Of a DNA stretch of 64,000 nt, positions 7,905 to 24,527 are shown piece after piece; position 1 is the first letter of the stretch; each line of letters begins with the position of its first letter. The position numbers and the translations under genes are program-made. The notes beneath the pieces are model-generated. The model did not search any database. It was given only the letters and a program-made list of their open reading frames with translations, and had not been told where the DNA came from. Source of the stretch: an uncultured SAR86 cluster bacterium (lineage in GTDB: Bacteria; Pseudomonadota; Gammaproteobacteria; Magnimaribacterales; D2472); assembly GCA_902515775.1 (NCBI GenBank), contig CABXVU010000001.1, positions 92,366 to 156,365 on the forward strand, given 5' to 3'.

Positions 7905-8743
7905 ATAAAGCACACGCATTCTTTGAATTAATGAGGCTTGATAAGCCTATTGGGATATATCTTTTACTTTGGCCAGCATTATTAGCATTAATTATAAGTA
8001 CTGGTGGTAATTTTATATATTCTGATTTTTTAATAGTTGTTATAGGAAGCATCTTGGTTAGATCTGCGGGTTGCGTTATTAACGATATATGGGATAGAGA
8101 CCTTGATGGCGATGTAGAAAGAACAAAATTAAGGCCAATTCCGAGTAAAAGAGTATCAATATACGAAGGCTGGGCTCTATTTTTAATTCTTGGATTTTTA
8201 AGTTTGATTTTACTCAGCCTAACTAATGCAAATACCATTTTTATAAGTTTTTGCTTTAGCCTATTGATAATTTTATATCCCCTCACAAAAAGATTTTTAA
8301 TGGGGCCGCAAATATTTCTTGGTCTCACTTTTAATCCAACGATTATTGTTTATGCCATGACAGATGAATTAAATAATTCAACAATGATATTTCTTTACTT
8401 TGCAATTGCTGCGATGACTATTGCTTTTGATACGCTTTATGGATTATGTGATATAGATGATGACAAAAAATTAGGTATTAACTCGACACCAATTTGGTGG
8501 GGATCAAATACTTTAAAAATTGTTGCCTGCTTTCAATCTATGGCAATTTTTCTTTTGCTAATTGTGGGATGGCAGGCTGCACTAAAATTTGTTTGGTTCT
8601 TAGGAGTATTTTTTTTGATTGGATTTTACTTACACCAACATCACCTTGCTAATCAAAAGAAATACTTCCAAGCATTTAAAAATAATCATTGGGCATCTTT
8701 TTATTTACTAATGCTCTCAGTATTATGTTTTCTTAATATTTAA
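7901..8743 (+). CDS. ubiA: 4-hydroxybenzoate polyprenyltransferase UbiA
   Basis: This membrane prenyltransferase joins the polyprenyl tail to 4-hydroxybenzoate. The ATG at 7901 overlaps the ubiC stop as ATGA and gives MNKAHAFFELMRLDKPIGIY, the normal UbiA N-terminus. The open frame could run 12 codons further upstream, but that part reads as ubiC-overlap sequence. It has about eight hydrophobic helices, a first aspartate motif NDIWDRDLDGDVERT and a second DIDDDKKLGI. The product is 280 residues. Its placement directly after ubiC confirms the role. Confidence 0.93.
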   Translation: MNKAHAFFELMRLDKPIGIYLLLWPALLALIISTGGNFIYSDFLIVVIGSILVRSAGCVINDIWDRDLDGDVERTKLRPIPSKRVSIYEGWALFLILGFLSLILLSLTNANTIFISFCFSLLIILYPLTKRFLMGPQIFLGLTFNPTIIVYAMTDELNNSTMIFLYFAIAAMTIAFDTLYGLCDIDDDKKLGINSTPIWWGSNTLKIVACFQSMAIFLLLIVGWQAALKFVWFLGVFFLIGFYLHQHHLANQKKYFQAFKNNHWASFYLLMLSVLCFLNI

Positions 8744-8747
8744 TTCC

Positions 8748-9872
8748 ATGAAATCTGAAATTCAAAAAATTAATTTAAAAGAGAAATCTTATTCATTTAA
8801 AGCAAATAATCCTTTTGAAGATTTTGCATACCTTAGAGCGATGGAGCAAAGTGAATCTGCTGCAGAAATCTCTGGGTGGATTCCAAATCATCTAGGAGAA
8901 ATTGAAGGTGAAAAATTGATAAGTTTTATGCCGTTATATAAAAAGTTTAACAGTTATGGTGAATTCATTTTCGATCAGCAATGGGCAAATGCCTTACAAA
9001 GGACGGGTAGAAGTTATTACCCTAAATTACTAACAGCAATTCCTTTTACTCCTTGTGAGGGAGATAGAATTCTAGCTAAAAATAAAAAAAATAAAATTGG
9101 TCTAATTGATGCGGGTATAAAAAAAATGGAGGCAGAGCAAATAGAGACTTGGCATATTCTTTTTCCAAATGAAGAGTGCAAGGCCATTTTGCGTGATAGA
9201 AACTTTATTGAAAGATTTAATTACAGATTTACATGGATAAATGATAATTTTTCTGACTTTGATCATTTCTTGTCAATTTTTACATCTCGTCAAAGATCTA
9301 CTATTCGAAAAGAGAGAAATAGCATTAAGAAATTAAACATTAAAATTAATTGCAAAAAATGTGATGAAATTACTATTGAAGATTGGGATTTATTTTATAT
9401 ATTTTATCAAAGAACATACTATGAGAGAGCCCAAAATCCATATCTAAATAAGGAATTTTTTTATTTAATAAATACCGGAAATCAGTATGTTAAACCAGTT
9501 ATTTTCTTTGCAGAGCTTGAAGGAGAAACAATTGGTGCCTCACTTTGTTTTGAAGGTGAAAATACCTTGTATGGAAGACATTGGGGAGCAACAAAGAAAA
9601 TAAAGAACCTGCACTTTGAATGTTGTTATTATCAAGGAATAGAATACTGTATAAAGAACAATCTCAAATACTTTGATCCAGGAGTTCAAGGTGAACATAA
9701 AATTAGGAGAGGATTTCAACCACATTCAAGCTCATCATTTCATTATTTTTTAAAAAAAGATTTTGATGAAGCTGTAATTCATTTTTGTGCATCTGAAAAA
9801 ATACAAATAGAAAATTATATTGAAGCCTGCAAATCCTATACTCCTTTCAACAAAGATTATAAAATTTATTAG
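8748..9872 (+). CDS. COG3146/DUF482 GNAT-like acyltransferase
   Basis: This 374-residue protein belongs to the peptidogalycan biosynthesis/recognition-like GNAT group (DUF482, COG3146). Family landmarks read in order: FLRAMEQSESAAEISGW-like N-terminus, HLGEIEGEKLISFMPLYKK, YGEFIFDQQWANA, YYPKLLTAIPFTPCEGDRIL, and a C-terminal GNAT half ending in a FDPGVQGEHKIRRGF-like segment. The biochemical function of the family is unsettled; aminoacyl or acyl transfer is assumed from the fold. It sits four bases after ubiA and abuts yqiB, so it is probably in the ubi operon. Confidence 0.82.
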   Translation: MKSEIQKINLKEKSYSFKANNPFEDFAYLRAMEQSESAAEISGWIPNHLGEIEGEKLISFMPLYKKFNSYGEFIFDQQWANALQRTGRSYYPKLLTAIPFTPCEGDRILAKNKKNKIGLIDAGIKKMEAEQIETWHILFPNEECKAILRDRNFIERFNYRFTWINDNFSDFDHFLSIFTSRQRSTIRKERNSIKKLNIKINCKKCDEITIEDWDLFYIFYQRTYYERAQNPYLNKEFFYLINTGNQYVKPVIFFAELEGETIGASLCFEGENTLYGRHWGATKKIKNLHFECCYYQGIEYCIKNNLKYFDPGVQGEHKIRRGFQPHSSSSFHYFLKKDFDEAVIHFCASEKIQIENYIEACKSYTPFNKDYKIY

Positions 9873-10304
9873 ATGTATAAAATTTTAAAAACAAAGGATC
9901 ACCTAACAACATGCAGTGCAAATTATTCTAGACTAAGAAAAATTCTTTGCAGCTTTAAACATGATGTCTATGTTTTTGAAATTCTTAATCATACCCAAAA
10001 AAGTGAAGCTGAATTTATTGTAATTTCACGAACACAGCACACTCTATCTATTGAGGCGAAATTTAAGAACAATGATCTGGCTTTGGTGAATTTTTTATTG
10101 AGAATAAATATTTACATCGATGCAAAATTAGCTGAAGTAGTTTCTTATCAACAGGAAAAACCAGTCCCATTTTTTTCCCCTCAACAATTCAGTCACTCGC
10201 AAGATGAAAAATATCAACAAAATAGAATTCTAACTGAATGGTTAGAGAATATTTTTATAAATGGAGCGGTTGAACTAAAGAAAATAAATTTTTTGAATGA
10301 CTAA
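9873..10304 (+). CDS. yqiB: YqiB family protein (DUF1249)
   Basis: This 143-residue soluble protein matches the YqiB/DUF1249 pattern: an early CSANYSRLRKIL segment, a central beta-rich part with YIDAKLAEVVSYQ, and the C-terminal signature DEKYQQNRILTEWLENIFINGA. The function of the family is unknown. It starts immediately after the stop of the upstream gene and overlaps yqiA by eight bases. The yqiB-yqiA pairing is conserved in Escherichia coli and supports both calls. Confidence 0.85.
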   Translation: MYKILKTKDHLTTCSANYSRLRKILCSFKHDVYVFEILNHTQKSEAEFIVISRTQHTLSIEAKFKNNDLALVNFLLRINIYIDAKLAEVVSYQQEKPVPFFSPQQFSHSQDEKYQQNRILTEWLENIFINGAVELKKINFLND

Positions 10305-10869
10305 AATTTTATATCTTCATGGATTTGCTTCTTCTGCTAATTCAACGAAAGCTAACTTAATAAATACCTTCATTAAAAAAAATACTAAATCAACTCAGAT
10401 TCTGATTCCAGATTTAGATAACGATATAGAAAGTGCATATCTTCAAATTGATTTAATAATAAAAAAAGAATCTCCCTCATCTATCATTGGAAGTTCTTTA
10501 GGTGGTTTTTATGCTACATATTTTTCAAACAAATATAATCTCCGATGTGTAAATATAAATCCAGCTGTTCCACCAATAGACATGTCAGAGTATCTCGGAG
10601 AGAATCAAAACTATTCCACAGGTGAAAAGTTTATTGTCAATGATCATCATTTAAAATTGCTGGAAACAATGAATCAAAAAATTAAATTTTTAAAAAGGCC
10701 AAAAAATTTTTTGACTTTAATTGAATCAGGTGACGAAGTGCTGGATTATAAATATGCAATAAAGTATTTTGCTTCAAGCCAGGTTGAGATTAAATTTGGT
10801 GGAAATCATTCATTTGAAGGCTTTGAAAAATACTTTTTAAAAATTAAAATATTCTTAAATATGCACTAA
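10297..10869 (+). CDS. yqiA: Esterase YqiA
   Basis: This 190-residue alpha/beta hydrolase belongs to the YqiA/UPF0227 family, which has reported acyl-CoA/ester hydrolase activity. The oxyanion strand ILYLHGFASSANSTKA leads the protein. The nucleophile elbow is IGSSLGGFYATY (GxSxG), an acid residue is likely in LIESGDEVLDY, and the histidine is in GGNHSFEGF. It is the last gene of the ubi/yqi run. Its stop codon lies inside the distal NtrC palindrome of the next gene. Confidence 0.9.
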   Translation: MTKILYLHGFASSANSTKANLINTFIKKNTKSTQILIPDLDNDIESAYLQIDLIIKKESPSSIIGSSLGGFYATYFSNKYNLRCVNINPAVPPIDMSEYLGENQNYSTGEKFIVNDHHLKLLETMNQKIKFLKRPKNFLTLIESGDEVLDYKYAIKYFASSQVEIKFGGNHSFEGFEKYFLKIKIFLNMH

Positions 10870-10878
10870 ATAAGTGCA
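10862..10878. promoter_or_regulatory. NtrC binding site, distal
   Basis: TGCACTAAATAAGTGCA is a 17-base inverted repeat that matches the NtrC enhancer consensus (TGCAC, about seven A/T-rich bases, GTGCA). It overlaps the last codons and stop of yqiA. Its centre is 52 bases from the centre of the second site, close to five helical turns, so both would lie on one face of the DNA. Confidence 0.82.
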
Positions 10879-10913
10879 TATTTAAACATTATGCTCTATA
10901 ATATAACTTTTAT

Positions 10914-10930
10914 TGCACTATAAAAGTGCA
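10914..10930. promoter_or_regulatory. NtrC binding site, proximal
   Basis: TGCACTATAAAAGTGCA is a second 17-base NtrC-type palindrome with the same half-sites as the distal copy. It ends only seven bases before the -24 element of the sigma-54 promoter, closer than in classical glnA promoters. It may therefore act mainly in cooperative NtrC binding, or as a governor at high NtrC levels. Confidence 0.8.
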
Positions 10931-10937
10931 TACATAT

Positions 10938-10953
10938 TGGCACTGATATTGCA
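10938..10953 (+). promoter_or_regulatory. Sigma-54 promoter of glnII
   Basis: TGGCAC, five bases, then TTGCA gives the full sigma-54 (RpoN) -24/-12 pattern, with GG and GC dinucleotides exactly ten bases apart. It sits about 50 bases before the glutamine synthetase start and directly downstream of two NtrC palindromes. It would be silent without activated NtrC and ATP hydrolysis. Confidence 0.88.
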
Positions 10954-11000
10954 TACTTATATAGCACTTTAAAAATTTATAACTTTTTAGGAGAAAGATA

Positions 11001-11981
11001 ATGTCAAAATATAAAACATATGAATACATCTGGCTCGATGGTTATCAACCAGAGCCATTTATGAGGAGCAAAGTTAAAGCAACAGATGCAGATACTCCTC
11101 CTGATTGGTCCTTTGATGGTTCATCTACACAACAAGCGGAAGGTGGAAGTTCAGACTGCCTACTTCTTCCAGTAGAAACTTACGAAAATCCAAATGGTCA
11201 TGATTTAGTAATGACTCAAGTTCAATCAGCCGATCATACAACTCATCCATCTAATTTTAGAGCTGCTGCTGCTGAAGTAGTCACAGATGAATGGTGGTTT
11301 GGATTTGAGCAAGAATTTTTCTTTACTGATCCTGAAACAGGCGAGCCTCTTGGATGGGAAAATGGAGAACCAAGAGCACAAGGAGAATTCTATTGTGGTG
11401 TTGGAGCTGGAAATGTTGTTGGTAGAGAAATTTCTGACCATCATCTTCAGGCTTGTCTTGACTTAGGAATCACACTAACGGGTACAAATGCAGAAGTTGC
11501 CCTTGGTCAATGGGAATATCAATGTTTTGGTACTGGAATTAAAGCAGCTGATGATCTTTGGATTAGCAGATATCTACTATATAAAATCGCAGAAGAATAC
11601 GGAGTAGGTGTAAACATTCATCCTAAACCAAAAACTGGTGATTGGAATGGTTCTGGAATGCATACTAACTTTTCTAATGAAGAAATGAGATCAAAAGGCT
11701 CAGAAGAATTATTTTCTTCATTGTGTGACAAGCTTGGCGCAGTTCATGGAGAAGGAATTGCTGCCTATGGTTCAGACAATGACATGAGATTGACAGGTCT
11801 CCATGAGACTCAAAGCATTGATCAATTCTCATATGGAGTTAGCGATCGAGGAGCAAGCATAAGAATCCCAGTATATACAGTTGAGCATAACTGGAACGGT
11901 TATTTAGAAGATAGAAGACCTGCTTCAAATGCAGATCCATATAAAATCTTAGCTCATATTGTTGGAACTCTAACAAAATAA
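11001..11981 (+). CDS. glnII: Glutamine synthetase, type II
   Basis: This enzyme makes glutamine from glutamate and ammonia using ATP. The 326-residue length and motifs are those of the short eukaryote-like GSII, not the roughly 470-residue GSI: YIWLDGYQPEPFMRSK at the N-terminus, PDWSFDGSST, the metal-binding WWFGFEQEFFF, and late catalytic motifs WNGSGMHTNFS and SDRGASIRIP. GSI-type adenylylation is not expected in GSII. The gene has an AGGAGAAAG ribosome site, its own NtrC/sigma-54 promoter, and ntrB-ntrC immediately downstream, so its control by nitrogen status is strongly implied. Confidence 0.95.
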   Translation: MSKYKTYEYIWLDGYQPEPFMRSKVKATDADTPPDWSFDGSSTQQAEGGSSDCLLLPVETYENPNGHDLVMTQVQSADHTTHPSNFRAAAAEVVTDEWWFGFEQEFFFTDPETGEPLGWENGEPRAQGEFYCGVGAGNVVGREISDHHLQACLDLGITLTGTNAEVALGQWEYQCFGTGIKAADDLWISRYLLYKIAEEYGVGVNIHPKPKTGDWNGSGMHTNFSNEEMRSKGSEELFSSLCDKLGAVHGEGIAAYGSDNDMRLTGLHETQSIDQFSYGVSDRGASIRIPVYTVEHNWNGYLEDRRPASNADPYKILAHIVGTLTK

Positions 11982-17557: not shown

Positions 17558-18547
17558 ATGGTAAATAAACATCATAAAAAGATTTTGGTGTTCGCGCTTC
17601 TATTAGATTTTCTGCTTGTGTCTCCAAACTTATTTACTCAAACAAATAATGAAGTAGTATTCTCAAAAAAGATTAATAGTCCTATTTTCAACGAATCAAA
17701 AGGTTCATACTGCAAAGAAAAAACAAACCCAGCCCTGCTTACATGGAGTGAAGATTTTGAAAAACCAAATCTTTCAAAATCAGATTGGACTTATGCAAAA
17801 GGTAATTCATTTATTTATAAAGGTAATCTTGTTTCGGGATGGGGTAATAATGAGTTGCAATACTACAGAATAGGTAGAGGAAAATTAAATACAAACCAAA
17901 ATTTATTTATTGAAGATGGACTTTTAAAAATACAGCCTATTTTCCATAAAAATAAATATAAAAAACATCTATTTACATCTGCAAGAATTCACTCTAAAAA
18001 TAAAAAATCCTTTACATACCCTTCCAAAATTACCTTCTGCTTTAAGGTGCCCAATGGAATAGGATTCTGGCCAGCATTTTGGTTGATGCCTGATAAAGAA
18101 ATAAATTGGCCTAAAGGTGGAGAAATTGACATCATGGAAAACCGAGGAAGAATATCAAATGTATCAAGTTCAGCTCTTCATTTTGGTTTCACGGCTAATA
18201 ATAAAGCCACGCTCGTTGGTGAAGTCTTAATCCCACAAAAAGTAAAATTTCAAGATCACTTTCACTCAATTACATTAGAGTGGCTGCAAAATGAATTGAA
18301 TTTCTATTTAAATGATGAAACGGAACCATATTTTTCAGTTAACTCAGATATGGGGTTATTTAAAGAATTTGGATATCCATTTAATTCATCATATTACTTA
18401 ATTATTAATGTTGCGGCTGGCGGGATATATGACGACCATTTGGTTGATAAAAGTGCTTTTTGCAATGATAAAAATTGCTCAAATCAAGCTTATCCAAATA
18501 AAAAAAGATTTCTAATTGATTGGATTGAATATCAAAAACTAGATTAA
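17558..18547 (+). CDS. Secreted glycoside hydrolase family 16 (laminarinase-like)
   Basis: This 329-residue protein has an N-terminal signal peptide (KKILVFALLLDFLLVSP) and a GH16 beta-jelly-roll domain. The retaining catalytic motif is exact: EIDIME at about residues 189-194 supplies nucleophile and acid/base. Aromatic substrate-cleft segments include LVSGWGNNELQYY and GFWPAFWLMP. This fits an endo-beta-1,3-glucanase acting on algal laminarin, though GH16 also covers agarases and carrageenases. It starts seven bases after yggX with no promoter visible, so it seems to ride on the mutY-yggX transcript. Confidence 0.9.
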   Translation: MVNKHHKKILVFALLLDFLLVSPNLFTQTNNEVVFSKKINSPIFNESKGSYCKEKTNPALLTWSEDFEKPNLSKSDWTYAKGNSFIYKGNLVSGWGNNELQYYRIGRGKLNTNQNLFIEDGLLKIQPIFHKNKYKKHLFTSARIHSKNKKSFTYPSKITFCFKVPNGIGFWPAFWLMPDKEINWPKGGEIDIMENRGRISNVSSSALHFGFTANNKATLVGEVLIPQKVKFQDHFHSITLEWLQNELNFYLNDETEPYFSVNSDMGLFKEFGYPFNSSYYLIINVAAGGIYDDHLVDKSAFCNDKNCSNQAYPNKKRFLIDWIEYQKLD

Positions 18548-19308: not shown

Positions 19309-19413
19309 GATTCTTAATTTAACTTTTTATTTTTAATATTCAAAGCAGAGATTAAATATTTACGTTTTTCTTATTATTTATCGAAATGAAAATTTATTCA
19401 TTAAATAAAAAAA

Positions 19414-19438
19414 GGAAGGTAAAAACCTTCCTTTTTTT
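19414..19438. terminator. Bidirectional intrinsic terminator
   Basis: GGAAGGT (19414-19420) pairs with ACCTTCC (19425-19431) around AAAA. A T run follows on the plus strand and a long A run precedes it, so it also terminates minus-strand transcription. The DUF4278 gene ends 15 bases to its right, so its main use is probably to end that short transcript. Confidence 0.9.
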
Positions 19439-19452
19439 AACTTAAATATAAG

Positions 19453-19623
19453 TTATGCTGACCAGCTTACACCGCGATAAACACCGCTTGATGGTTTAGC
19501 TGACTTGCTTAGTTTTAAAGCATTGTATTTAGCACCTCTATAATTCAATACTTTGTCAACAGCTGAGCTGTGATTAGTATTGTTTTGGCGAGTTACTTTA
19601 ATGCCTCTATAGTACGAAGTCAT
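19453..19623 (-). CDS. DUF4278-like 56-residue protein with three YRG repeats
   Basis: The ATG at 19623 is preceded by a strong GGAGG ribosome site eight bases upstream, so the longer open frame (to 19683) is rejected. The product carries three YRG motifs spaced through it: YYRGIKV near the N-terminus, NYRGAKY in the middle and VYRGVSW near the C-terminus. That is the hallmark of DUF4278-type small proteins. The function is unknown. The gene is monocistronic, ends at a strong terminator and has a long structured leader, which suggests high and regulated expression. Confidence 0.75.
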   Translation of the reverse strand: MTSYYRGIKVTRQNNTNHSSAVDKVLNYRGAKYNALKLSKSAKPSSGVYRGVSWSA

Positions 19624-19653
19624 ATTAGCCTCCAGTTTTCGTCGATTAAAATA

Positions 19654-19677
19654 ATATATCTTTCGATATACACCAAT
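19654..19677 (-). promoter_or_regulatory. GAAA-capped hairpin before the DUF4278 ribosome site
   Basis: On the minus strand TATATC-GAAA-GATATA forms a perfect stem with a GNRA tetraloop. It lies about 30 bases upstream of the GGAGG ribosome site and downstream of the repeat pair, with the same GAAA loop as the hairpin in the second repeat. A role in translation control or mRNA stability is inferred. Confidence 0.5.
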
Positions 19678-19684
19678 TAACAAC

Positions 19685-19793
19685 GCGTTCCTTCAGTATC
19701 ATTACCTACTTCCGTCTCTTTCGAGATGAACGATAATGCGTTCCTTCGTCTTGCGACTACTTCCGTCCTAATTTGAATATACTAGGATGAACG
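19685..19793 (-). repeat. Two imperfect direct repeats in the DUF4278 leader
   Basis: Read on the minus strand, two units (19793-19738, 56 bases; 19732-19685, 48 bases) each contain CGTTCATC, then GACGGAAGTAG, then GAAGGAACGC in the same order with different spacers. Small GNRA-capped stems sit between them: TCTC-GAAA-GAGA (about 19728-19717) and GTC-GCAA-GAC (about 19757-19748). The unit lies 60-170 bases before the start codon. GGA triplets recur in both units. It looks like a structured mRNA leader, not a coding sequence. Confidence 0.7.
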
Positions 19794-19878
19794 TTAAATC
19801 ATATTTTAAATAATTTAAAAAAAATTTCAAAATTGTTGATAAAATTTACACATAATTATGTTGCCCTCATATTATTAA

Positions 19879-22221
19879 CTAATATGAAAGCTTATAAGGA
19901 TATCCGTGAAAAACTATTTGATTAATTCCCGCTGCGAATGCATTACCAGCCAACCTTTCATAATCTTCAATTTTCAACTTATTGTAATTAAAGTCTATTT
20001 CAATAAAGGACTCTGAGCTAACAATCTTTTTATTTGCAATATTTCCAGCTGAGGACGCTAATTTTAAGAAATCAAAACTTCCTCCTGCAAAAAGACCCTC
20101 ACTTTCAGGAATATCCGCAACGGCATATGCATCCAAATAATTACCATATCCTCCATGTGCTTGAAGCCTTAACTTAATATTTAAAGAGTTAGTCCAGTTT
20201 TTTATTGGCAGGAGAAACTCAGTCATAAAAAGCTTTTCTCTTGTATGCAGATAATCCTCGTATACTCTCTCGCTAAGGTTATGTTCTGACTGATATAAAA
20301 ACTCTTCGCCAAATATTGCAAATAGGTATTTTGATTCTCCATTCTTTTTAAAAATTAAAGGCAGGTATGGAGCAATACTATAGCCATGCATCTCCTCAAA
20401 GGTTTTAAAAAAATTTTTTGACCAGGGCAGCTCGCCAATTAGCTCAAAACTATCAATAAAAAAATTTCTTGGCTTGTAAGGTTTTATTTTTTCTATCCAA
20501 TTATTTCCCAGCTTATCGATATACTCCTCAACGCCTCCTTTATTTAAATGGTCTAACACTAAAGATTCATCCCATGCTCCTTTATAAGCAGAACCCAGCG
20601 TATTATGAGAAACATTATTCTGATATATAAAAAACAATTTGTATTTCCCTGCAGGGACATCTAATTTCAATCCATCTTCATTCAAGGAATGGCTTACATC
20701 TTCAAACTCAGTCAAAATATCTATTTTTTGTGATTGTTGAACTTTTGCCAGAGTAACTTTCATTAAATCAATATCTTGATCAAACTTACCTATTGTTTTA
20801 TTTACAATGAAATTTGTTTTACTTATATAAGAGGGCTCTTGAATTTTAGGAGGTTTAATTGTTCCGTTTACTGGTCCGATGATCTCTAACTCAGATTTTA
20901 TTAGTTGTTGTGCGGGAAAATCTTTAATGAATGGGCCTCCACTCGACCAACCACTTCCAAGAGTAAGATCTACATTCAATTTTAAAGCATTCGCCTGTGA
21001 AAATAGATATTTAAGATTATCAAAAAAGGATTGTTCTCCCACTTGAAAGATTTCATTTTTATTTTGCATTAAATATTTTTTTGGCATTCCAATTGTCAAT
21101 GTTTGCAGCTCAATCGAAGAAAACTTAGCTTTTTTAAATTTCTTCAGCTCTGTTTGAATCTGAGCTTTTTCTACTGCATTTCCAGGCCACCACCATCTTA
21201 AAATTGGAAAGTATCTTTCGTCTGGATTAATCCATTCATTAGCTTCAAAACAATTTTCATTATTTAAGTCTGTTCTTTGACTCAGAATTAATATTTTTGC
21301 TTTGCCTCCTTCTATTGACATTGTTATATTTTCAAGAAAATTTCGGTTAGAAAATTCATCTATGCTTCCGTCAAAAGGATCAAGAATTTTTATATTCTTT
21401 AAAGGTTTATTTAAATAAAAAAATTTTTTCTGTGCCTCATAAGAATCATTAAAAAAATAAATAATTTTATGTGAGCCACATGACCTAGTGGCAGATCTAA
21501 AGTAATTTTTATCTTTATCTGATAAAGTTATTAATGGATCAATATTTAGGTCCTTTAAAGTATTAGCAAGATCTTGTGTATCGTTAAGTTGGAACACAAG
21601 TTTAGAAATCTTTTCTACATGTCTAACGATTTCCGTGTCTTTAATTTTAAAATTAGAAAGCCCAGTTGCACGTTGCGGAAAATCACCTATGAATATTACT
21701 TTCAGTCCTTCATCTGCAAGGGCTAGAATCTTTCTCAAAATACTTGGAGAAGTATGCTCTAAATTAGTTACAAGCAAAGCTTGATATGAGCCATTTCCAA
21801 TATTTAATTTATTCTCAGAAATCTTTGACGACAAAAGATTCTTCTTACTTATCCGGTCATAGGTATAACCATTTAAATTAATATGTTTACTAATTTCGGA
21901 CTCTTTATAATTTGAATTTAGTCTTTGAAACTGAAAATTCGGTTCATCTGGCCAAGCTCCATCTTGAAAATACCATGCGATGTTAACTTCAGGCACTCCA
22001 AGCTGCATAATATATGACATCCTAGCTAGGCTTAAATTTAACTCGTTTATGTTTTGCCAAATGTTAATTTCATTTAAATTGCTTGTTAAAGCGATTGGGC
22101 CTGCTGTATATAGTTGGCCGAAGAATGAGTTGGGAAAAGGATACCAATTTTTATCTTCTGCACTGCATCCTATAAATAAAATCAGAGAAAGAAATAGCGA
22201 AATTTTTTTTAATTTATCCAA
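19879..22221 (-). CDS. GH106-like glycosidase lipoprotein with permuted domain order
   Basis: This 780-residue protein has a lipoprotein signal (hydrophobic stretch ending LFIGC at residue 19). In the alpha-L-rhamnosidase family GH106, the usual order is catalytic barrel (start RWWWPG, then GSGWSSGGP, a SFEL region, DIPESEG, then GINxxVFHGYPY) followed by a C-terminal half starting WYPF. Here the C-terminal half comes first (WYPFPNSFFGQLY at 26, LARMSYIMQLGVP at 65, GYTYDRIS at 118, IYFFND at 254). The catalytic half follows from about 341 (LRWWWPG) and the protein stops just after FHGYPY at 776. Substrate is probably a rhamnose-containing glycan. The order is seen directly; the family assignment is from recognised motifs. 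Confidence 0.75.
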   Translation of the reverse strand: MDKLKKISLFLSLILFIGCSAEDKNWYPFPNSFFGQLYTAGPIALTSNLNEINIWQNINELNLSLARMSYIMQLGVPEVNIAWYFQDGAWPDEPNFQFQRLNSNYKESEISKHINLNGYTYDRISKKNLLSSKISENKLNIGNGSYQALLVTNLEHTSPSILRKILALADEGLKVIFIGDFPQRATGLSNFKIKDTEIVRHVEKISKLVFQLNDTQDLANTLKDLNIDPLITLSDKDKNYFRSATRSCGSHKIIYFFNDSYEAQKKFFYLNKPLKNIKILDPFDGSIDEFSNRNFLENITMSIEGGKAKILILSQRTDLNNENCFEANEWINPDERYFPILRWWWPGNAVEKAQIQTELKKFKKAKFSSIELQTLTIGMPKKYLMQNKNEIFQVGEQSFFDNLKYLFSQANALKLNVDLTLGSGWSSGGPFIKDFPAQQLIKSELEIIGPVNGTIKPPKIQEPSYISKTNFIVNKTIGKFDQDIDLMKVTLAKVQQSQKIDILTEFEDVSHSLNEDGLKLDVPAGKYKLFFIYQNNVSHNTLGSAYKGAWDESLVLDHLNKGGVEEYIDKLGNNWIEKIKPYKPRNFFIDSFELIGELPWSKNFFKTFEEMHGYSIAPYLPLIFKKNGESKYLFAIFGEEFLYQSEHNLSERVYEDYLHTREKLFMTEFLLPIKNWTNSLNIKLRLQAHGGYGNYLDAYAVADIPESEGLFAGGSFDFLKLASSAGNIANKKIVSSESFIEIDFNYNKLKIEDYERLAGNAFAAGINQIVFHGYPYKLSY

Positions 22222-22241: not shown

Positions 22242-22287
22242 TGGTGCCCAGAGGTGGAATCGAACCACCGACACAAGGATTTTCAGT
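22242..22287 (-). repeat. Distal attachment site (duplicated tRNA-Phe 3' half)
   Basis: The 46 bases are identical to the segment of tRNA-Phe from the anticodon stem-loop to the CCA end. Beyond it the sequence diverges at once and cannot form the 5' half of a tRNA, so this is an attachment-site duplication and not a second tRNA gene. It begins 20 bases upstream of the GH106-like start codon. Confidence 0.9.
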
Positions 22288-22334
22288 TCTTGACTCGAAA
22301 ATTGAAACCCCATAGATATGCATGTTTCAGACTC

Positions 22335-22400
22335 TAGTGTTCATGTTAGTGTTCATATTTTGTATGAGAAAGATGAAAGATCTTACTAGATTGTGAACAT
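22335..22400. repeat. Arm-type recombinase boxes, left end
   Basis: TAGTGTTCAT occurs at 22335-22344 and again at 22347-22356. An inverted relative (TGTGAACAT) occurs at 22392-22400. The same box is clustered at the other end of the element next to tRNA-Phe, which is the expected arrangement for integrase arm sites. The rest of 22288-22529 shows no gene. Confidence 0.65.
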
Positions 22401-22529
22401 ATATTACATTGAATTTCATGAAAAAATCCCCATATAAGTAAGTGTAAAGAAAGAAATATCTTCTTATTTCAAATTCCATTACTCACATTTACATACTCAA
22501 TTCCGGGTATGTTTCTCATGGAGAAAAAT

Positions 22530-22823
22530 ATGGAACAAATCTATAGAAAAGAGTTTCCCCAAGGCAGTCATTCTGTTTATGCAGAGTATGGTCTGAATGG
22601 AGATTTAACTTTGAGTTCTCATCATTATGGTTCAGATGTTGAAACTTTTTGGGGCAATGATGAGTATGAGTATTACTTAACGATAGATAAAGATGGACTA
22701 TCTAAGTTCATGATTCATTGTCTTGTAAAAGGTTTTAACTCTGATAAGAAATTAACTCTTCATGACATACAAAAGTTATGTGATAAAGAGAGAATAAAAT
22801 ATTCAACTAATACTTGGGTTTAA
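22530..22823 (+). CDS. Unrecognised small soluble protein (element cargo)
   Basis: The frame opens at 22509, but the ATG at 22530 has GGAG seven bases before it and is the likely start, giving 97 residues. The sequence is soluble and rich in Tyr, Asp and Glu, with GLNGDLTLSSHHYG, then ETFWGNDEYEYYLTID, then a helical C-terminus. The GDL...FWG...YEYYLT pattern recalls uncharacterised small bacterial proteins, but no function is known to me. It is one base from the next gene, so the two form a unit. Confidence 0.65.
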   Translation: MEQIYRKEFPQGSHSVYAEYGLNGDLTLSSHHYGSDVETFWGNDEYEYYLTIDKDGLSKFMIHCLVKGFNSDKKLTLHDIQKLCDKERIKYSTNTWV

Positions 22824-22824
22824 T

Positions 22825-23028
22825 ATGGAAATCAAAAACGATAATGACAGAAGACTTTGGATCAGGATTAAATCTATTGATAAGAAGATAGATGGTCTTG
22901 GCAAAATAGGTTCTAAAGATTTTGACTGGTTAAAGTGGGAAGAACTTACAGATGAGAGTGCAATACTGCACTCTCAATTGTCTTTTCACCGAGATATTGT
23001 TAACAGTCTTATAAAGAAGTGGGGATAG
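22825..23028 (+). CDS. Unrecognised 67-residue helical protein (element cargo)
   Basis: This short, highly charged protein is predicted to be mostly helical (RLWIRIKSIDKKIDGLGKIG, then HSQLSFHRDIVNSLIKKWG). It starts one base after the stop of the upstream gene, which argues for a real translationally linked gene. No domain is recognised. Confidence 0.55.
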   Translation: MEIKNDNDRRLWIRIKSIDKKIDGLGKIGSKDFDWLKWEELTDESAILHSQLSFHRDIVNSLIKKWG

Positions 23029-23108
23029 ATATAAGTATTTTTTATAAATCATTTCCATAAAACTACTGGTCGTGATTAAGTCGAGAATGGCATAATCATT
23101 AAGTGAGT

Positions 23109-23618
23109 ATGAAAAACATAAAAATAAGTTACGTTTTTATATTACTAATATTTATCGTAGTTCCTACGATATTTGGAATTTTGTGGCAAGAATATACATT
23201 CGTAATTTTTTTCCTTTTGGGTTGGTCATATGTCGCATATGAGCAAAGACATCTTTTTAAGTCATCTGAACAAAAACAGAAAGAACTGGATGATTTATTA
23301 GAAAAAATAAGTCAAAGATATGCAAAAAAACTTGTTGATGATACCTATAACCTCTGCTTAAACAGAGATAGGAATCAAAGTTTTGATGACTGGGTAAAAA
23401 ACGCAATCGAACTTATGGCAATAGATGAGGTTGAAACAGGAGAAACAGATAAGAGTATTGTTGAAGAACTTAAAGAACTAGTTGGTGAAAATAATTGGGA
23501 AGTTTTTTATCCTGCAAAAAGAATCGAACAAGAATTATCAGTTTCAGAGTCTTATTGGACTGGTTTAAGAAAGTTTGATGAGCAAGTGGAAAAAGATATC
23601 AAAGAGAAAAAATCATGA
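23109..23618 (+). CDS. Unrecognised membrane protein with cytoplasmic helical domain (element cargo)
   Basis: Two closely spaced transmembrane helices (VFILLIFIVVPTIFGIL and TFVIFFLLGWSYVAYE) lead into a long charged, coiled-coil-like domain of about 120 residues. The ATG at 23109 is used; a GTG six bases earlier is possible and neither has a clear ribosome site. No family is recognised. The topology, a membrane hairpin with a cytosolic tail, is shared loosely with the next gene. Confidence 0.6.
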   Translation: MKNIKISYVFILLIFIVVPTIFGILWQEYTFVIFFLLGWSYVAYEQRHLFKSSEQKQKELDDLLEKISQRYAKKLVDDTYNLCLNRDRNQSFDDWVKNAIELMAIDEVETGETDKSIVEELKELVGENNWEVFYPAKRIEQELSVSESYWTGLRKFDEQVEKDIKEKKS

Positions 23619-23697
23619 AGACAATAAAAAATTACAATAAGTGTTAAAGCATTTATTATTGTTTGTGTTATTTTTGCGTGATAGGTTGGATTAGATT

Positions 23698-24336
23698 ATG
23701 TTTGGAATGTTAGATTACAGAGCACATAAACTCTACATAATTTTATTCTTCATACCGAATCTTGTCTTGACATTATTTGCGATGTTTGGACTCCCTTTAA
23801 TCAATTATTCTATTGGATTGGCATTTGCAGACGAAAGAATTTATCAAATCCTTATTTCGATAGTTGCATTATTCTTTGTTGAAATGATTTGGTTGTTAAT
23901 TATTTTTACACTTGTTTCCAAAGCATTTAAGTTTATTTTTGAATTATTTGTGGATGTAATTCCTCACGATGGAAGAACTAAAGAAGAAGCACAAATGGTT
24001 GTTTGGGGTGGTGAAAAAGCAATTCGTTCTCTTCAAATATCTAAACATCCATCTCAATGGACTGAATCTTTAATATGCGAAATTCCAAAAAATGACTGGG
24101 TAGCAAATTTATTCTTTAGAGATGATTTAATTAAAAGATTTCAAACAGTCTATGATGAGTATTTGTCAATGTCACCTGATACTCCGTATAACGATGCAGA
24201 AGTTGAAAGAATAATGGCAGAACACAATTTAAATCTTTCTTGGCAGGAAAAAGTTTTTGCAAGTCCGCAACTTAGAAGAGTTGTTATCGCATACTCTTTC
24301 TTTTTATTCTTACTTATATACAACCCTTTTGGATAA
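23698..24336 (+). CDS. Unrecognised membrane protein (element cargo)
   Basis: This 212-residue protein has two long N-terminal transmembrane segments (LYIILFFIPNLVLTLFAMFG and ILISIVALFFVEMIWLLIIF), a soluble middle of about 100 residues (with DVIPHDGRTKEEAQMVVWGG and an acidic PYNDAEVERIM helix), and a C-terminal hydrophobic anchor (IAYSFFLFLLIYNPFG). It is the last gene before the right arm sites. No known family is recognised; an immunity, toxin or defence role would be pure guesswork. Confidence 0.65.
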   Translation: MFGMLDYRAHKLYIILFFIPNLVLTLFAMFGLPLINYSIGLAFADERIYQILISIVALFFVEMIWLLIIFTLVSKAFKFIFELFVDVIPHDGRTKEEAQMVVWGGEKAIRSLQISKHPSQWTESLICEIPKNDWVANLFFRDDLIKRFQTVYDEYLSMSPDTPYNDAEVERIMAEHNLNLSWQEKVFASPQLRRVVIAYSFFLFLLIYNPFG

Positions 24337-24386
24337 AGAATGAAAGACATCAGTTATCAAGTTTAAATCCTCAAGTATTTATAAAA

Positions 24387-24421
24387 TGTGAACACTCAAA
24401 CTAGTGTTCATAAGTGTTCAT
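24387..24421. repeat. Arm-type recombinase boxes, right end
   Basis: TAGTGTTCAT at 24402-24411 and AAGTGTTCAT at 24412-24421 are direct repeats, with the inverted TGTGAACACT at 24387-24396. They mirror the left-end cluster and lie 31 bases from the tRNA-proximal attachment core. The rest of 24337-24451 shows no gene. Confidence 0.65.
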
Positions 24422-24451
24422 AAAACCAAGATTATAGAAATGCTTTAAGAG

Positions 24452-24497
24452 TGGTGCCCAGAGGTGGAATCGAACCACCGACACAAGGATTTTCAGT
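24452..24497 (-). repeat. tRNA-proximal attachment site
   Basis: The 3' 46 bases of the intact tRNA-Phe gene are the proximal copy of the element's direct repeat. The repeat starts in the anticodon stem-loop and runs through CCA, the common attB segment of tyrosine recombinases that use tRNA genes. Confidence 0.9.
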
Positions 24498-24527
24498 CCT
24501 TTGCTCTACCGACTGAGCTATCTGGGC
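24452..24527 (-). tRNA. tRNA-Phe (GAA)
   Basis: The 76-base gene folds as a complete cloverleaf. The acceptor GCCCAGA pairs with TCTGGGC, the D arm is GCTC...GAGC, the anticodon stem AAGGA/TCCTT holds the loop CTGAAAA with anticodon GAA, and the T arm is GGTGG-TTCGATT-CCACC. CCA is encoded. Its 3' half is duplicated at 22242-22287 by an insertion. Confidence 0.98.

Follow-up and report, generated by a model that had tools for sequence, protein, structure and literature searches.

Evidence for a natural circular permutation of a predicted GH106-type alpha-L-rhamnosidase lipoprotein in SAR86 bacteria

The gene and its product

The window (the whole stretch of SAR86 DNA that was analysed, 64,000 nucleotides) belongs to a draft genome of 1.26 Mb, which is distributed over 36 contigs and is 78% complete. 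Its minus strand carries a gene for a GH106-type protein, and the TTG start of this gene is kept in close relatives. The features are listed below with their window coordinates; PF17132 is the GH106 profile and NovoP6W is a normal-order Novosphingobium protein of 953 aa.

19879..22221 (-), permuted GH106-type lipoprotein gene, 780 aa, TTG start, intact open reading frame
22165..22221 (-), signal peptide and lipobox, residues 1-19 (MDKLKKISLFLSLILFIGC), from the translation
21271..22146 (-), second half of the family, now first, residues 26-317, matching NovoP6W 511-792 and PF17132 518-739
21352..22041 (-), profile match to PF17132 518-739, in the N-terminal part
21229..21270 (-), new linker, about residues 318-331, from the second half to the barrel start, seen as the gap between the two aligned blocks
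19885..21228 (-), first half of the family, now last, residues 332-779, matching NovoP6W 33-504 and PF17132 2-120 and 199-483
20863..21228 (-), profile match to PF17132 2-120, in the C-terminal part
19903..20772 (-), profile match to PF17132 199-483, in the C-terminal part
20443..20445 (-), E593, aligned with the general acid E461 of BT0986 (alignment; role from PMC6828813)
20011..20013 (-), E737, aligned with the general base E593 of BT0986 (alignment; role from PMC6828813)
22242..22291 (-), 50-bp copy of the tRNA-Phe 3' end, directly upstream of the permuted gene

The signal peptide in the translation is short and closes with a lipobox at residues 15-19 (LFIGC). The family's second half comes after this lipoprotein signal, as an earlier sequence-only reading had claimed. 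The lipobox cysteine (Cys19) is invariant in 7 SAR86 homologues and the residue at +2 is Ser. The lipoprotein is probably located in the outer membrane. Residues 26-317 contain the WYPF motif, the probable barrel helix 8 (about residues 54-73) and then GATase-like and beta domains, the domain names being provisional. Residues 332-779, from RWWWPG to HGYPY, are the probable barrel strands 1-8.

Order of the two parts

PF17132 matched the protein with 103 bits (cut-off 29), and the matched stretches ran along the protein as 518-739, then 2-120, then 199-483. Because the profile coordinates do not rise along the protein, the GH106 order is swapped, which agrees with what had been read from the motifs. 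When the halves were compared with NovoP6W by BLASTP, residues 332-779 aligned with 33-504 and residues 26-317 with 511-792. One part thus ends at 504 and the other starts at 511, with 6 residues between them, and on this alignment the cut is clean, each part taking up nearly where the other leaves off.

Both halves could be aligned in 12 relatives (Pseudomonadota, Bacteroidota, Actinomycetota, Gemmatimonadota and haloarchaea), and all of these showed the normal order; four further relatives matched by one half only at the sensitivity used, and the normal-order relatives from outside Pseudomonadota were all plasmid-derived. Alignment with a doubled sequence is the standard test for circular permutation. 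The doubled mature sequence gave a one-piece alignment through the junction in 11/11 normal relatives tested, with a score above that of either half; with NovoP6W it reached 253 bits over 33-792, compared with 187 and 77 for the two pieces separately. Profile-profile comparison placed residues 329-779 on 30-504 of the normal profile with probability 100, and the identity between the barrel part and normal relatives was low (24-28%). In a tree of reordered sequences the seven permuted proteins formed one clade (SH-aLRT 100), so one origin is enough to account for them. Sphingomonad and Hymenobacter proteins were the nearest neighbours of this clade, a placement with moderate support (86).

A fusion of N- and C-terminal parts from different GH106 paralogues might give a chimera that merely resembles a permutation. 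The faster evolution and weaker matches of the N-terminal part (E value 1e-13, versus 4e-57 for the C-terminal part) would suit such a fusion, as would the fact that the parent gene is not known. However, the best matches of the one part and of the other are the same sphingomonad BT4145-type proteins, where the two meet at 504 and 511, and we regard a fusion as improbable. The profile order, the separate half alignments, the doubled-sequence test and the single clade support the protein being a circular permutation of GH106, as had been proposed.

Conservation, locus and distribution

The permuted gene was found in 7 genomes of 2 SAR86 genera, namely the window and six more. Five of these are further genomes of the genus of the window (76-93% identity), and the sixth is from the other genus (G032), with 50% identity and an assembly of a single 1.3 Mb contig. 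In the window and in five further genomes the gene has conserved flanks, with the tRNA-Phe region on one side of it and a short-chain dehydrogenase gene on the other; a normal-order gene with the same ends in a neighbouring genome, which would have spoken for an assembly error, was not seen at this locus in these five, and the permuted order was present there instead. All copies are open, with no stops. Pairwise dN/dS was 0.08-0.18 for the C-terminal part (about 0.1 among close relatives) and 0.18-0.42 for the N-terminal part (0.2-0.3 among close relatives). The permuted gene is under purifying selection, which is stronger in the barrel part.

An artefact of assembly or binning could be suspected in a draft genome of 36 contigs. 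But the order and the ends are identical in separately assembled SAR86 genomes with conserved flanks, and they recur in the one-contig genome of the other genus, which makes an artefact extremely improbable. With independent genomes, open frames and low dN/dS, assembly error and decay are excluded or very unlikely: the genomes rule out the first, and the dN/dS values and open frames rule out a pseudogene.

What lies between tRNA-Phe and the dehydrogenase gene varies among genomes, and the permuted gene is accessory: in 11 members of the genus that lack it, other cargo occupies the tRNA-Phe locus, with no trace of GH106. In one genome of the genus (G025), the slot holds an apparent DNA cytosine methyltransferase with neighbours, judged from the translation (L059 4924-6924), which is perhaps a restriction-modification system. 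Partial copies of the tRNA 3' end, 45-59 bp long, occur in several genomes and point to an integration hotspot that holds the permuted gene. In the window a 2.2 kb insert (22242-24527) lies between tRNA-Phe (24452-24527) and the 50-bp copy of its 3' end, and contains three small ORFs with no recognised integrase. In two of the other genomes (L023 and L027) the tRNA gene directly adjoins the permuted gene. A GH16-family gene (PF00722) at window 17558-18547 (+) is also found in L027 and is absent from that place in L023-L026.

No other permuted gene and no other GH106 were detected in 369 genomes across the class, and therefore a close normal-order parent is not known. Among 398 genomes of the phylum there were two partial matches elsewhere, and the one seen in full (G842) was normal-order. 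A normal-order parent hidden in SAR86 was considered and rejected, as the sole non-permuted GH106 genes in the order were two distant normal-order ones (G077). No duplication intermediate was found, nor any remnant of the lost parts beside the permuted gene. Viral contigs gave no further relatives, and phage records gave only three matches, partial and distant.

A separate small cassette lies nearby. Two tandem glutamine riboswitch aptamers (RF01739; 63.2 and 59.9 bits) at window 19682-19795 (-) precede a 56-residue DUF4278 peptide at 19456-19623 (-) and a strong terminator-like hairpin at 19391-19454. The glutamine riboswitch and DUF4278 are both named in papers on cyanobacterial glutamine synthetase, and here the pair occurs in SAR86. 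The cassette is directly downstream of the permuted gene in the window (19456-22221), L023 and L027, directly upstream of it in the other genus (L049, cassette at 8383-8735 and gene at 8774-11110), and absent beside it in L024-L026. The cassette motif was present in 48 of the 107 genomes of the family.

Missing jelly roll and position of the cut

Normal relatives have about 160 further residues, with a GH2-like jelly-roll domain (NF045579, PF22666). This C-terminal jelly roll (NF045579) is absent from the permuted protein and had no match above the cut-off in its genome, and all the permuted SAR86 proteins are without it. The missing jelly roll means that the event was permutation together with domain loss.

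The mature N-terminus begins seven residues before WYPF, which is followed by a conserved helix with RMSYxMQxG. At the other end, HGYPY is near the C-terminus, as had been noticed earlier: the last residue of the motif is 776 and the chain stops at 780 (4 to 7 residues beyond the motif). E737 sits one strand before HGYPY, and about 35 residues separate the general base from the break, which falls directly after HGxPY. In eight-stranded barrels such an order is that of strand 7, strand 8 and helix 8. Because the base, HGYPY and the RMSYxMQxG helix fit this order, the cut probably falls in the loop that connects strand 8 to helix 8, and the TIM barrel itself would be split. The "catalytic half" of the sequence-only reading is then probably not the whole barrel, since its last helix seems to be supplied by the N-terminal part.

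Plain domain shuffling would instead have moved the other module to the N-terminus at a domain border and left a complete, unsplit barrel. PF17132 does not mark the barrel borders, and AlphaFold2 from an alignment of six sequences gave a mean pLDDT of 30.5, both of which leave room for shuffling. The break, however, immediately follows the HGxPY strand motif and is about 35 residues past the base and before the RMSYxMQxG helix, and we think shuffling at a border unlikely compared with a cut inside the barrel.

Catalytic residues and predicted function

In BT0986 the general acid is E461 and the general base is E593 (PMC6828813). Their counterparts E593 and E737, together with D590 and S591, which align with the BT0986 metal ligands D458 and S459, were identical in 13/13 aligned sequences, and the acid and base positions are invariant across all SAR86 copies. 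BT0986 E538 and E561 likely correspond to Gln687 and E708 here, placed by spacing through a third sequence only; the calcium ligand E538 thus appears as Gln687, likewise in other BT4145-type relatives. Because the acid and base of BT0986, and two of its metal ligands, are matched here by identical residues, the protein is expected to be a metal-dependent alpha-L-rhamnosidase tethered as a lipoprotein.

The best NCBIfam match was NF049897 (BT4145 alpha-L-rhamnosidase) with 203 bits, which does not reach the equivalog cut-off of 1300; by this score the permuted protein is related to BT4145 and is not the same enzyme. BT4145 is listed as a rhamnogalacturonan alpha-L-rhamnohydrolase (PMC6828813), and with the score far under the cut-off this specificity should not be transferred.

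The permuted protein might also fold and be catalytically inactive, for example as a sugar-binding lipoprotein. The missing jelly roll and the one metal ligand that appears different would agree with this, but the acid and base are invariant in all SAR86 copies and purifying selection is stronger in the barrel part, and the chance of an inactive protein seems small to us. With an intact gene that keeps its catalytic residues and is common to two genera, this has the appearance of a natural circular permutation that works.

Proposed explanation

We consider it likely that the product of the gene is a BT4145-type GH106 alpha-L-rhamnosidase that was circularly permuted in nature and that SAR86 exports as a lipoprotein, with activity, substrate and membrane location predicted from the sequence. 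The ancestral order would have been barrel strands 1-8, helix 8, GATase-like domain, beta domain and jelly roll, and the present one would be lipobox, helix 8, GATase-like domain, beta domain, short linker, barrel strands 1-8 and stop. The former point between strand 8 and helix 8 would have become a pair of free ends, and the barrel would close when the helix at the N-terminus packs onto the strands of the C-terminal part. Catalysis may proceed as in GH106: E593 would act as the acid and E737 as the base, and a divalent metal would sit close to D590 and S591. As to the origin, the sequence-only reading had proposed tandem duplication followed by loss of the outer halves. Tandem duplication or a similar head-to-tail joining would still be the most likely route, and loss of the outer parts alone is insufficient, as the jelly roll (about 160 aa) would have been lost also and the linker at about residues 318-331 added.

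Loops after barrel strands are on the catalytic face. If the cut is in the strand 8-helix 8 loop, the lipid anchor would attach at that face: Cys19, seven residues before WYPF, would lie in the former loop, on the edge of the active site. It is conceivable, though we hold it only tentatively and think it somewhat doubtful, that the anchor was shifted from the barrel bottom to the catalytic face so that the tethered enzyme faces the membrane, as a geometric adaptation and not a neutral accident. If true, such anchor geometry could serve membrane-bound glycans or the hand-over of product to a receptor.

Comparison with known systems

Natural glycosidases with circularly permuted domains are known in GH70 glucansucrases and in MalS (GH13_19) (PMC10223318). 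They differ from the SAR86 protein in family, substrate and break point. Neither GH70 enzymes nor MalS are known to have a lipid anchor at the break. Natural permutations that cut a catalytic barrel and are still in use are rare and mostly known in the GH13/GH70 group. We found no report of GH106 with circular permutation in the open-access literature. The SAR86 case offers normal-order relatives for comparison and two genera with small streamlined genomes, in marine bacteria that are very abundant. It also allows one to ask, with a natural protein, whether it matters where a lipid anchor sits with respect to the active site. A further point concerns annotation, where an assumed linear family order scores permuted proteins as weak, broken matches.

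The closest known group is the BT4145-type GH106 (NF049897; Sphingobium, Novosphingobium, Hymenobacter and Bacteroides homologues). It has in common with the SAR86 protein the two conserved blocks, the catalytic and WWW / HGxxY motifs and 24-28% identity over the barrel part, but its order is reversed and it has the jelly roll NF045579, which the SAR86 protein is without. BT0986 (PDB 5MQM, 5MWK), a solved GH106 rhamnosidase, is more distant than the BT4145 group; its E461, E593, D458 and S459 have identical counterparts in the SAR86 protein, whereas its barrel is N-terminal, in the normal order, in a chain of 1105 residues.
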